Below are positions 30,568 through 35,313 of a DNA stretch of 56,824 nucleotides, in pieces. Under the pieces are notes generated by a model. That model saw nothing but the letters and a program-made list of their open reading frames with translations, made no database searches and was not told the DNA's origin. The stretch comes from Verrucomicrobiota bacterium (GTDB taxonomy: Bacteria > Verrucomicrobiota > Verrucomicrobiia > Chthoniobacterales > UBA10450). Positions within the stretch are counted from its first letter, which is position 1. Each line of letters opens with the position of its first letter. The stretch lies in NCBI GenBank assembly GCA_003218975.1, contig QHPD01000110.1:1-56824 (forward strand), read 5' to 3'. The position numbers and the translations under genes are program-made.

Positions 30568-33222
30568 TTAGTTGCTAGGATCACCTGGACGCGGCGTTGC
30601 CGATTTCAAAAGCGTTTCGTCTACACTTTCTTGGTCGAGCGGTTTAACGGGTATCGCCCGGGGAACCGCGCGTCGAATCTCGACGGGTTTTTCCTGCGGC
30701 TGGACCGAGATCGCTTTCCTGATCGGAATGACCTCTGTTGTTTGATTGGATGACTCGCCTCCGGATTTCGTAATAGTTGCAGGCGGGCGATTAAGGTCAG
30801 CCGCTCCTCCCGAAGTCGGTGTTGCCCGGCTGGCGTCTATCGCATTGTCGATCTTTTCGTTTTCGGCTGTCTCCTTTTTTGCTTCCGGCGTCGGCTCCGG
30901 TTTCAAGGTTGGTTTGAGTGAGTTGTATGGGTCTTTGTCAGCCAACAACGTCGGGCCTTTCAGGACGACTGGCGTGACTCTACTCAGATCGACAGCCAAT
31001 TCCGCACGCGGCAAATCGCTAGCCGGAAGGTCACGCGCGAGACGAGCACGCGGTTCGCCATGGACGTTGCACGGCTCAGTGGGCATCTGCGCAGCTGTGG
31101 CGATCTCCATGTAAGTCGTACGTCGTTGAAAAGTATCGCCGTTACCCGTTTTCACGACGTCATAACATTTGTCGGTCGCGAGCAAGCCGGATCGCGAACA
31201 AATTTCCACCTGCTTCAGGCTTACCGACTGTCTAATTTCGCGCGGCGGATAATGCTGTGCTGCGGCGTTCATGATATCGATCCACACCGGCAGGGCGAGA
31301 TCGCGCCCAAACGCCCCACGATAAATTTTCTGCGGCTTGTCAAAGCCTGTCCAAACTGCGCAGGTAAAGTTGGAATCGTATCCGGCGAAAAGCGCGTCGG
31401 TAAAATCGTAGGCCGTGCCGGTTTTCCCTGCCGCTGGGATTTTTCGTAGCCCAAATTGCGTGTAAGCGGCTCTCCCCGTTCCCGATTGCAGTGCATCGAC
31501 AAGACAGGAATGCACTTCGTACGCGGTTTCAGGTTTGATCACGTTTTTGCGCGTGCGATCGCGCTTCGCATCCCAGACGAGTGTTCCGTCTTTTTCCTCT
31601 ATCCGCTCCAAAACGTGCGATGCATTCGGACGCCAGCCGCCATTTGGGAAAATCGTGTAGGCGAGCGCGAGCTCGGCCAGCGTGATCTCGCTGCTGCCAA
31701 GAAATGTTGCAGGATAAGGACGAAGCAGAGACTGAATGCCCGCCGCAGAGCAAAGCTGCAGCACGGGATCGATGCCAGCGTCCATGCCGAGACGGACGGT
31801 TGCGCCATTTTTGGATTTCGTCAGTGCTTGCCTAGCGGTTATTGGACCTTCGTAGCGATTCTCTGCGCTTTCTGGGCCCCACTCACCAAGGATACCAGTC
31901 GTGCCGCCAATCATCACTGCGCGATTATCGAGGGGCGAATCTTCCACAAGCGATCCCGGGAACATCCCTTTCTCAAAAGCAGCCGCATAAACGAGCGGCA
32001 ACATCGCTGTGCCAACTGGCCGTTTCGCTTGCAGCGCGCGGTCGTACTGGTTGTGCTCGAAATCGCGCCCACCGACAAGGACCAAAATGTCGCCCGTCTC
32101 ATTATCCAGTCCGATCACCGCGCCCTGAAGATACTCGGGCGCAGGCTGGTCAGACATCGCTCCGTTCGCTTTCGCTTTTCGAAAAGTGGCTGCGTATTCG
32201 GCATAAGTCTGATGATTGTACTCAGGATTCTTCTCGATCCGCTCGAGGTTCGCGCGGAGAGAATCCTCGGCTACCTTCTGAAGATCCACGTCGATTGTGG
32301 TGTGAATGCGAAAGCCTTCGTTCTTCGCCCGGTCCCACCCGACGGCGGCGATGACCTGCTGGCGGATGTAATCGACAGCGTAGCTTTGCCCCTGCGCATT
32401 CTGCCGGCTACCAACGACGATTTTTTCCGCTCGCGCGCTCGCACATCTTTCACGACTGATGAAGTCAAGATCGCGCATGCGATCGAGCACATAATTGCGC
32501 GCTTCGCGTGAAGCGGCGCCATCGCTCCAGGGAGATAATTTATTTGGGCTCTTGATTAAACCGGCAAGTGTCGCGCACTCCGTCAGCGACATTTCGCGCG
32601 CAGATTTGCCGAAGTAACCTCGCGCCGCCGCTTCCGCGCCGTAGAGCCCGCCGCCGAAATAAATCCGGTTCAGGTAAAGTTCCATGATTTTCTGTTTGCC
32701 GAAGTTCTCTTCGATCCGGCGGGCTAGAAAAATTTCGAGCAGCTTTCGGCGAAGCGTTTTTTCCTTGAGCGAAAAACTGTTGCGCGCCAGTTGCTGCGTA
32801 ATAGTGCTGCCGCCCTGCCGGACATGACCGGCCGTCAAATTCTTCAAAGCCGCGCGGATGATTCCGAGTAAATCGTACCCATGATGTTGATAAAATTTGG
32901 CGTCTTCCACTGCGACAACGGCGTTGATAAGGTCCCGGGGCAATTGATCGTACGGTACTGTCTCCCGGTTTTCGACGTAGATTTGGCCGAAGATTTTTCC
33001 GTTGCGATCGAGAATCACACTCGCTGATTCCATTTGTTCGAGTTTGTTCAGATTGAACCTCGCCGCCTGGGCTTCGAGATTCGCGACCACAATGGAAATG
33101 TAAACAGCAAAGGCAACGCCGAGCGCCGCAATCAACGCGATCGGAACATAAAATTCGGGCCGCGAATGCCAGGGGCGACGGAAACGGTAGCCTGGCGTCA
33201 GATATGTCGTGGACGGTCTCAA
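30568..33222 (-). CDS. Class A penicillin-binding protein (PBP1A type) with an altered transpeptidase active site
   Basis: Bifunctional cell-wall synthase layout, 884 residues: one N-terminal helix (PIALIAALGVAFAVYISIVV), a GT51 glycosyltransferase domain (VAVEDAKFYQHHGYD, RQGGSTITQQLARN, YLNRIYFGGGLYGAEAAAR) and a transpeptidase domain with SKN (470-472) and KTGT (600-603). The SxxK box, expected as GSxFKP, here reads GTAMLP: T405 in place of the serine and L408 in place of the lysine. Without these the transpeptidase should be unable to acylate or cross-link, so this may work as a glycosyltransferase only. A long proline- and basic-rich C-terminal tail (about 720-884) is likely disordered. 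It is the first gene of a pair with the glycosyltransferase-like gene. Confidence 0.92.
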   Translation of the reverse strand: MRPSTTYLTPGYRFRRPWHSRPEFYVPIALIAALGVAFAVYISIVVANLEAQAARFNLNKLEQMESASVILDRNGKIFGQIYVENRETVPYDQLPRDLINAVVAVEDAKFYQHHGYDLLGIIRAALKNLTAGHVRQGGSTITQQLARNSFSLKEKTLRRKLLEIFLARRIEENFGKQKIMELYLNRIYFGGGLYGAEAAARGYFGKSAREMSLTECATLAGLIKSPNKLSPWSDGAASREARNYVLDRMRDLDFISRERCASARAEKIVVGSRQNAQGQSYAVDYIRQQVIAAVGWDRAKNEGFRIHTTIDVDLQKVAEDSLRANLERIEKNPEYNHQTYAEYAATFRKAKANGAMSDQPAPEYLQGAVIGLDNETGDILVLVGGRDFEHNQYDRALQAKRPVGTAMLPLVYAAAFEKGMFPGSLVEDSPLDNRAVMIGGTTGILGEWGPESAENRYEGPITARQALTKSKNGATVRLGMDAGIDPVLQLCSAAGIQSLLRPYPATFLGSSEITLAELALAYTIFPNGGWRPNASHVLERIEEKDGTLVWDAKRDRTRKNVIKPETAYEVHSCLVDALQSGTGRAAYTQFGLRKIPAAGKTGTAYDFTDALFAGYDSNFTCAVWTGFDKPQKIYRGAFGRDLALPVWIDIMNAAAQHYPPREIRQSVSLKQVEICSRSGLLATDKCYDVVKTGNGDTFQRRTTYMEIATAAQMPTEPCNVHGEPRARLARDLPASDLPRAELAVDLSRVTPVVLKGPTLLADKDPYNSLKPTLKPEPTPEAKKETAENEKIDNAIDASRATPTSGGAADLNRPPATITKSGGESSNQTTEVIPIRKAISVQPQEKPVEIRRAVPRAIPVKPLDQESVDETLLKSATPRPGDPSN

Positions 33223-33244: not shown

Positions 33245-33335
33245 AACGCTCAACCCTCAATGCCCAACATCCAACGTCAATTCAGAGCACAGAAGTTGAA
33301 CATTGAGCATTAAACGTTGAGCCTTGGACGTTGAA
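33245..33335. repeat. Inverted repeat of AACGTTGAGC-like words upstream of midA
   Basis: The left part (33245-33282, AACGCTCAACCCTCAATGCC and onward) is roughly the reverse complement of the right part (33295-33335: TTGAACATTGAGCATTAAAC, then GTTGAGCCTTGGACGTTGAA). The words vary around CAACGTTCAAC/GTTGAACGTTG. The right end contains the TTG used as the probable midA start. A related block is at 35950-35986. Confidence 0.65.
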
Positions 33336-34431
33336 CACGCAGGACGGAAATCTCGCGCTAATCAGAGTGATTCGCGCTGAAATTGAAAAACATGGGCCGG
33401 TCTCATTTGCCTGGTTCATGCAACAGGCGCTCTATCATCCTGAGCACGGATATTATTCCTCTGGCCGTTGCGCCATTGGCCGGCACGGCGACTACTTCAC
33501 CAACGTAAGCGTCGGGCCACTGTTCGGGCAATTGCTGGCTGCGCAATTAGCCGAGATATGGGGACGGCTCGGCAATCCGGATAAGTTTGTTGTTGTCGAG
33601 CAAGGCGCGCATCACGGCGAATTTGCACGCGATGTTCTCGAATCGGCGCGCAAACAGTGGCCGAATTTCTTTGCGGCTTTGCGCTACCGGATCGTCGAGC
33701 CGTTTTCAATCTTACAAGATCGACAATCGCAAACTCTCCAATCGCTTGCCGACAAGGTCGAATGGTACGATTCAATCGAGGCGCTGGGACCATTTATAGG
33801 AGTTCATTTCTCCAACGAATTACTGGATGCCATGCCGGTGCGACTGATCGCCGGCGGCACGGAAAAATTGGTCGATTGTGATGGCAAGAACTTTGTGTTT
33901 GTCGAGAAACCGCTCCGCGAGTCGGGAAAGTTCAACCAAGCGGCCCTGGATTGGGTCGAGAACGTAGCGGCGAAATTGGACCGTGGTTATGTGGTCACGG
34001 TCGATTACGGGCGCGCGCAGTCCAGATCTCAAGTGACCGTTCAGGTGCGCGCGCGACATCGGCATCTTGATTCACCATTCGATTGGATCGGCTACGCGGA
34101 CATCACCGCGCATGTGAACTGGACGAGCATCGCCCAATGCGCCGAAACGCATGGATTGCGCCTAGTCGGCTTCACCGACCAGCATCATTTCCTTACCGGG
34201 ATCATCTCAGAAATTGGGGGGGGCGGTTCACCTAAACTATCCGCGGACGATTGGGGTAAATCGCCTCTATCTGATTCGCCCAAATCAAAACGTGAATTGC
34301 AAACGCTGCTGCATCCAGAAATGCTCGGTCGAACTTTTCAGGTACTCGCGCTCGCAAAAAAAGTCGATCCCGCTGCACCTGTCGTCGGCTTCAAATTTGC
34401 GCGTGATCCGCATCAGACGCTCGGTGTTTGA
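33331..34431 (+). CDS. MidA-family SAM-dependent methyltransferase (NDUFAF7-like)
   Basis: 366 residues of the DUF185 type. Conserved points are GPVSFAWFMQQALYHPEHGYY, GRHGDYFTNVSVGPLFGQLLA, VVVEQGAHHGEFARDVL (SAM-binding GxGxGxxA with H in place of one Gly), FSNELLDAMPVRL and ADITAHVNWTSI, with LHPEMLGRTFQVLAL at the end. Eukaryotic relatives methylate an arginine of complex I; the bacterial target is unknown. The only start upstream of the conserved domain is a TTG at 33331, lying in a dispersed repeat and without a recognisable ribosome-binding site. A G8 run at about 34216-34223 keeps the frame. Confidence 0.88.
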   Translation: MNTQDGNLALIRVIRAEIEKHGPVSFAWFMQQALYHPEHGYYSSGRCAIGRHGDYFTNVSVGPLFGQLLAAQLAEIWGRLGNPDKFVVVEQGAHHGEFARDVLESARKQWPNFFAALRYRIVEPFSILQDRQSQTLQSLADKVEWYDSIEALGPFIGVHFSNELLDAMPVRLIAGGTEKLVDCDGKNFVFVEKPLRESGKFNQAALDWVENVAAKLDRGYVVTVDYGRAQSRSQVTVQVRARHRHLDSPFDWIGYADITAHVNWTSIAQCAETHGLRLVGFTDQHHFLTGIISEIGGGGSPKLSADDWGKSPLSDSPKSKRELQTLLHPEMLGRTFQVLALAKKVDPAAPVVGFKFARDPHQTLGV

Positions 34432-34503
34432 AGAGCTGACTAAAAGAACCTCTTGCCAGCATCCTCAGCTTGTTCGATATGTTCACCGCTGTCTCCTGCT
34501 GCG

Positions 34504-35313
34504 ATGAGATCGATCTGGCGTCTTTTATTTTTGCTGCATGCATCATCGATCTTTGCTTTGGCCTCGAACAGCGTCGTCAACCTCTCGCATTACGACCTAG
34601 TCCAGCCGGATTTTGTCGCTATGAAGAGCGAAGGAATTCTTGGAGTCATCCATGAAGCAACGTATCCGCGGTTCGACATCGACTCGAAATATTTCGAGCG
34701 GCAGCAGGCCGCCACGCGGGCTGGGTTGCTCTGGGGTGCATATCATTACGGCAATGCAAGCGACCCTATCCGCCAAGCCGATCATTTCCTGAGCGTGGTC
34801 TCGAACGCCTGGACGCAGGCAGACCCACTCTCGCGGCCGTCACGTATGTTGCTGGTGCTCGATTTCGAGAAGAATGGCCATTACCCCGGCGGCACGATGC
34901 GTGTCGACCAAGCCGTCGCGTTCGTCGAGCGGATTCGTGAACGGACTGGGAAATACCCGGGCATCTATTCTGGCGAATATTATATGCATCAGAATATGAA
35001 CAGTCTGAGGTTGGGTACAGCGCAGGCAAGTGTGCTGGGGAATTGCTGGCTATGGCTGGCGAACTACAGCAACCAGCCGCGGGCCACCTCGCCATGGAAT
35101 GCCTGGCATATGTGGCAGTACTGCGGTGACGGCAGGTGCAAACTTCCGACATCAGCGTACCCGAAAAGTATCGCGAACGTTACCAAAGCCGAACGCAACA
35201 TCTTCAATGGCACGTCGACTGCGCTGCAAATCTTCTGGCGGGAACATGCCTGGCAGCCAAGCGAAAAACCTCGCCGCGAACCGGAGCGAATGGTCACGGC
35301 GTCGGATCTGTAG
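34504..35313 (+). CDS. Secreted GH25 lysozyme-like protein
   Basis: 269 residues: a signal peptide (SIWRLLFLLHASSIFALA) and a GH25 catalytic domain (NLSHYDLVQPDFVAMKSEGI, HEATYPRFDIDSKYFER, GAYHYGNASDPIRQADHFL, LVLDFEKNG, IYSGEYYMHQN, WLANYSNQPRATSPWNAWHM and the WQY signature). The DFE of LVLDFEKN holds the expected catalytic acid residues. It would cleave peptidoglycan, so an autolysin, a spent-wall recycling role or an attack on competitors are all possible. The frame is open to 34453, but the ATG at 34504 gives the correct signal peptide. Confidence 0.85.
   Translation: MRSIWRLLFLLHASSIFALASNSVVNLSHYDLVQPDFVAMKSEGILGVIHEATYPRFDIDSKYFERQQAATRAGLLWGAYHYGNASDPIRQADHFLSVVSNAWTQADPLSRPSRMLLVLDFEKNGHYPGGTMRVDQAVAFVERIRERTGKYPGIYSGEYYMHQNMNSLRLGTAQASVLGNCWLWLANYSNQPRATSPWNAWHMWQYCGDGRCKLPTSAYPKSIANVTKAERNIFNGTSTALQIFWREHAWQPSEKPRREPERMVTASDL

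Follow-up and report, generated by a model that had tools for sequence, protein, structure and literature searches.

The class A penicillin-binding protein (PBP) encoded in the window, by which we mean the whole 56,824-nucleotide stretch of Udaeobacter DNA analysed here, has a threonine and a leucine in place of the serine and lysine of its SxxK acylation motif, while the residues of its glycosyltransferase domain are intact. Given this combination, the protein is most likely a pseudo-PBP that polymerises lipid II without cross-linking it. Class A PBPs are usually regarded as bifunctional enzymes and targets of beta-lactams, and the proteins described here are annotated as ordinary members of that class. 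They are not specific to the source genome, for PBPs with the same threonine are common to several lineages of Verrucomicrobiae. The extent to which nature uncouples polymerisation from cross-linking, the role of a penicillin-binding domain without catalysis and its possible replacement by L,D-transpeptidases can all be tested directly on a protein of this kind, in which the polymerase is maintained and the cross-linking domain dead, and which is fixed in several large lineages of the class and occurs in cultured Akkermansia muciniphila. A search of the open-access literature found no published natural class A PBP with a dead transpeptidase and no work on the Akkermansia or Udaeobacter protein, which counts as weak evidence.

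Architecture and motifs of the Udaeobacter protein

The gene begins with a TTG codon, and the plus strand across the locus is interrupted by stops (table 1). Its product has the domain layout and the GT51 motifs that had been read from the sequence beforehand: Pfam gives 213 bits for Transgly (PF00912) and 59 bits for Transpeptidase (PF00905), the NCBIfam model PBP_1a_fam (TIGR02074) scores 523.8 bits against a curated cut-off of 508.75, and both catalytic glutamates are present. The C-terminal part is a proline-rich tail. The transpeptidase match that follows GT51 sets the protein apart from monofunctional glycosyltransferases, as does a mono_pep_trsgly score of 155.5, below the cut-off of 182.65. 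A beta-lactamase or a DD-carboxypeptidase was also considered and set aside, since the GT51 domain and the PBP1A score are decisive against both. A plasmid collection searched with the protein returned distant class A PBPs only.

Table 1. Features of the PBP locus in window coordinates, with the residues of the protein and the basis of each assignment
Feature	Residues	Position	Strand	Basis
Class A PBP (PBP1A family) with dead transpeptidase motif	884 aa	30568..33222	-	ORF; TIGR02074 above cut-off; PF00912 and PF00905
Putative N-terminal hydrophobic membrane anchor	~25-50	33073..33150	-	By eye from sequence
GT51 transglycosylase domain, Glu106 and Glu163	75-249	32476..33000	-	PF00912; both Glu 58/58 in family
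Predicted pseudo-transpeptidase domain	367-640	31303..32124	-	PF00905; predicted fold; match to 4oon
Degenerate motif 1, GTAMLP (Ser to Thr405, Lys to Leu408)	404-409	31996..32013	-	Codons, alignment
Motif 2, SKN	470-472	31807..31815	-	Kept here; GKN or SKI in other lineages
Motif 3, KTGT	600-603	31414..31425	-	Kept here; Lys600 invariant in family
GT-B-fold glycosyltransferase-like gene, 3 bp downstream of PBP stop	349 aa	29515..30564	-	AlphaFold, Foldseek
MidA-like methyltransferase (PF02636), divergently transcribed		33331..34431	+	Pfam; synteny across families

Where class A PBPs are expected to read GSxxKP, the codons of motif 1 are GGC ACA GCG ATG TTG CCG, and alignment to solved PBP1A structures puts the columns of the SxxK serine and lysine exactly at Thr405 and Leu408. 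The codons and this alignment confirm the replacement from which the original prediction had started, and the protein has neither the active-site serine nor the general-base lysine of SxxK acyl-serine transferases. The SxN and KTG(T/S) motifs of these enzymes are both intact, again as first read, and their retention favours continued ligand binding by the Udaeobacter domain.

The protein thus resembles the PBP1A family (TIGR02074; structure 4oon; Acinetobacter baumannii PBP1a, 3udf) in domain order, GT51 motifs, transpeptidase fold and motifs 2 and 3, but differs in the missing serine and lysine of motif 1 and in having the sequence DNRxVMIGGTTGILGEWG, specific to its clade, between motifs 1 and 2. 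Its predicted net activity, glycan polymerisation only, is that of the MtgA-type monofunctional GT51 enzymes, from which it is distinguished by a full transpeptidase domain under strong selection. The intact PBP1A whose presence in the same genome had been proposed for checking does exist: this paralogue (C20, motif 1 GSAFKP) has the same architecture and about 37-39% identity to the pseudo-PBP, but carries complete SxxK, SxN and KTG motifs and belongs to a separate clade.

Distribution and origin of the threonine-type PBPs

Our survey covered Verrucomicrobiota, with one pattern-based scan beyond the phylum, and the genomes compared are mostly metagenome-assembled (MAGs). Within the phylum sample, strong matches to the pseudo-PBP are confined to the class Verrucomicrobiae. 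Closest are congeneric orthologues from about 25 MAGs, 75-88% identical to the Udaeobacter protein, and it is from congeneric matches that the source organism was assigned as a relative of Candidatus Udaeobacter (Chthoniobacterales); throughout its genus and family, the orthologues that cover the motif all have Thr405, with L, K, T, Q or S at position 408. In the remaining families of Chthoniobacterales the motif is mostly GT[AVL]F[TLVAIG]P, and elsewhere in the class GTAF[TLF]P or GTA[IVL]LP occurs in two families, f33 and f15; every surveyed orthologue outside one family, f6, has Thr405. Family f15 includes A. muciniphila ATCC BAA-835 (genome G140; PMC3048395), whose threonine-type PBP, at about 2,584,377-2,586,947, reads GTAILP, SKI and KTGT; the same genome additionally encodes an intact class A PBP with GSLFKP. 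In the wider set of threonine-type sequences, some of them partial, 106 of 121 lack both the serine and the lysine, the latter being replaced in most by L, T, F, V, A, Q, S, I or G.

Erosion extends in many relatives to the other motifs, SKN becoming GKN or SKI and KTGT becoming KSGT, KPGT or KGGT. We quantified this on 58 diverse Verrucomicrobiae sequences that had been chosen for threonine at position 405. Lysine occupies position 408 in only 8 of these, Ser470 is kept in 38 and Asn472 in 43, and Thr601 varies; Lys600 and the GT51 residues Glu106 and Glu163 are each present in all 58. A further group of residues is conserved in this lineage and atypical of the intact paralogues, namely Asn433 (57/58), Glu447, Gly449 and Glu451, and Tyr605 is likewise a clade-specific invariant. 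One genome of f33 also carries a third class A paralogue (L201, G114:C1:363495-365345) in which all three motifs are broken, as GTAFLP, GKT and WGGT.

How many times was the serine lost? In a tree of 52 rows computed under a mixture model with the motif columns left out, all threonine-type rows and one nested revertant lie on one side of a branch with support 80/70; this branch, which unites the two main threonine groups, also takes in a long-branch row. The threonine side splits into a Chthoniobacterales group (95/99) and a group of f33 and f15 (96/99), and the intact paralogues of these genomes group apart from both (90/78). Two changes between serine and threonine at position 405 suffice over the whole tree. 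Independent evidence of orthology comes from the conserved MidA-like neighbour, which adjoins the pseudo-PBP in Chthoniobacterales families, in f33 and in the members of f15 other than Akkermansia. From tree and synteny together, the simplest reading is that the threonine-type PBPs constitute one old paralogous lineage, which would have undergone a single Ser-to-Thr loss after duplication.

Family f6 adds a complication. One of its genera, g30 (L237-L248), has GS[AS]FKP, with GSAFLP in two basal members, and its sister genera mostly have GTAFKP; in another genus, a single sequence with GSAFKP (L253) is nested among GTAFKP relatives. Forcing the g30 representative outside the threonine group was rejected (AU p = 0.004). 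On the parsimonious reading, SxxK was apparently regained in g30 and, independently, in L253, so that some relatives of the Udaeobacter pseudo-PBP appear to have kept or regained the lysine, and one genus the serine too. Catalysis is consequently possible in some members, and the apparent regain provides a natural case, of a rare kind, in which the reversal of a pseudoenzyme can be tested.

Proposed function and competing explanations

We consider it likely that the Udaeobacter protein polymerises lipid II, that its penicillin-binding domain has no catalytic activity, and that the cross-links between its strands are made in trans by other enzymes, plausibly L,D-transpeptidases. At the base of the lineage, a single Ser-to-Thr change would have removed the usual nucleophile, after which the general-base lysine would have been free to vary. 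GT51 would continue to polymerise glycan strands, the penicillin-binding domain being kept as a folded, non-acylating module that most likely holds partner proteins or the peptide stems of nascent strands and thereby gates or positions GT51; stem-peptide binding, partner docking and allosteric gating are all roles that we infer for it. Judging from the motifs, such a domain should not bind beta-lactams covalently and would serve a regulatory or scaffolding role, as was first proposed. Cross-linking would fall to those class A and class B PBPs that are intact and, plausibly, to the many YkuD L,D-transpeptidases.

Enzymes suited to this task are present in the source genome, which encodes two further class A PBPs that both have SxxK (GSAFKP and GSTLKP), three more transpeptidase genes besides the GT51 PBPs, and 14 YkuD domains in 14 places; f33 genomes have 13-18 such domains. 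Among 188 sampled genomes of the class, with the revertant set aside, the median number of YkuD domains is 9 in the 66 genomes of pseudo-PBP clades and 2 in the other 122, an association that is no more than suggestive, since the genomes with the pseudo-PBP are concentrated in few clades and were assigned according to clade and strength of the match, with motif 1 read directly in some of them. In addition, 5-12 YkuD genes are found in certain families that lack the pseudo-PBP. The correlation was rejected as proof of a partnership, on account of its phylogenetic clustering in few independent clades. In a side observation, four f20 genomes of 2.3-2.5 Mb (G064, G071, G079 and G086) have no strong class A PBP match and 6-8 YkuD genes. 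That such a division of labour is feasible follows from E. coli, in which PBP1b S510A, dead as a transpeptidase, still acts as polymerase for 3-3 cross-linking by the L,D-transpeptidase YcbB (PMC5089857). Both proteins combine an intact polymerase with disabled acylation, but S510A is a laboratory mutant with alanine, whereas the pseudo-PBP is natural, old, selectively maintained and has threonine. The partnership with L,D-transpeptidases, though plausible, is the least certain part of our proposal. We advance more tentatively the extension that natural, transpeptidase-dead PBPs across the class might be dedicated polymerase partners of L,D-transpeptidases, with the domain turned into a stem-peptide sensor and the pseudoenzyme state reversible, as the regained SxxK of g30 would indicate.

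An unlikely alternative, though the best of those we weighed, is that the loss served chiefly as an adaptation to beta-lactams: a PBP blind to penicillin would keep polymerising under the beta-lactams of soil or gut while L,D-transpeptidases cross-link. The soil habitat of the lineage, the 14 YkuD genes with the association just described, and the beta-lactam resistance of E. coli carrying dead PBP1b plus YcbB (PMC5089857) all fit this explanation; yet the genome still encodes intact class A and class B PBPs, which are presumably sensitive to beta-lactams, and the lineage is fixed in Akkermansia as well.

Rather improbable in our judgement is a rewired active enzyme, in which Thr405 would act as nucleophile with another base in a slow or altered acyl transfer. 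Thr405 is strictly conserved outside f6, at a position where substitutions would be expected in a mere scaffold, and it is constant (58/58, in a set selected for it) while position 408 drifts. The lineage also has its clade-specific invariants, Asn433, Glu447, Gly449, Glu451 and Tyr605, besides the universal Lys600, and the Udaeobacter protein retains motifs 2 and 3; candidate bases would be Lys600, the near-invariant Lys471 and the clade-specific Glu447 or Glu451. Against this stands the lysine of motif 1, which is the base that SxxK enzymes require. Moreover, a working pocket is not expected to tolerate the loss of the motif 2 serine in 20 of 58 sequences and of its asparagine in 15, or the variation of Thr601. 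That motifs 2 and 3 are eroded in other lineages speaks against Thr-dependent chemistry, which we regard as improbable.

Simple decay of a redundant transpeptidase domain that lost its function after duplication might be suggested by the eroded motifs of several lineages, but it is very improbable in view of the selection acting on the domain. Among 23 congeneric sequences, dN/dS (Nei-Gojobori; approximate, because dS exceeds 1) is 0.052 for GT51, 0.050 for the pseudo-transpeptidase domain and 0.149 for the tail; the values of the intact paralogue are 0.053 for GT51 and 0.056 for the transpeptidase domain. The domain evolves, therefore, as slowly as GT51 and as its intact counterpart; it is also retained across several orders or families, with Thr405, Lys600 and the clade-specific residues invariant. 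The AlphaFold model has a mean pLDDT of 88.3, mostly 90-98 in the transpeptidase domain, and superposes on P. aeruginosa PBP1a (4oon) with Z 47.7 and an rmsd of 2.3 over 376 residues. Catalytic residues are lost while purifying selection and the predicted fold are retained, as in pseudoenzymes, and on these estimates and this model the domain is being kept, not decaying. The original idea, that an intact glycosyltransferase is here joined to a transpeptidase domain evolved into a pseudoenzyme, is therefore upheld, being backed also by the single threonine clade, the eroded motifs, the invariant GT51 residues and the intact paralogues in the genome.

Finally, a sequencing or assembly error or a misaligned motif 1, for which we found no favourable evidence, can be dismissed: the motif is conserved in the congeneric MAGs, Thr405 recurs in all orthologues of the family that cover the motif, as the proposed alignment with homologues revealed, MAGs obtained independently and the genome of an isolate (G140) show the same motif, and no other S..K tetrad exists within residues 360-660, which disposes of the two objections, error and a displaced intact SxxK, that the original prediction had named against itself.

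Neighbouring genes

The gene whose start lies 3 bp beyond the stop codon of the PBP was correctly placed from the beginning, and its description as glycosyltransferase-like has gained a structural basis while its linkage to the PBP has proved restricted. No Pfam family matches it, even at a loose E-value. Its AlphaFold model (pLDDT 91.9) finds sucrose-phosphate synthase, MshA and BshA, all of GT4 type, as best Foldseek matches (E ~1e-10 to 1e-8), so that a GT-B fold of GT4 type is predicted by structural similarity where sequence families are silent. The gene adjoins the PBP throughout the Udaeobacter family wherever the contig allows and was not found beside the pseudo-PBP in other families; its product may therefore be a local partner at most, and the notion of a universal partner of these PBPs was rejected.

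On the other side of the PBP, the occurrence of the divergent MidA-like gene beside pseudo-PBPs of distant families suggests a shared promoter region or a functional link. Close to the PBP there is also a GH25-type lysozyme-like gene (window positions 34453-35313), which lies near it in some relatives only.
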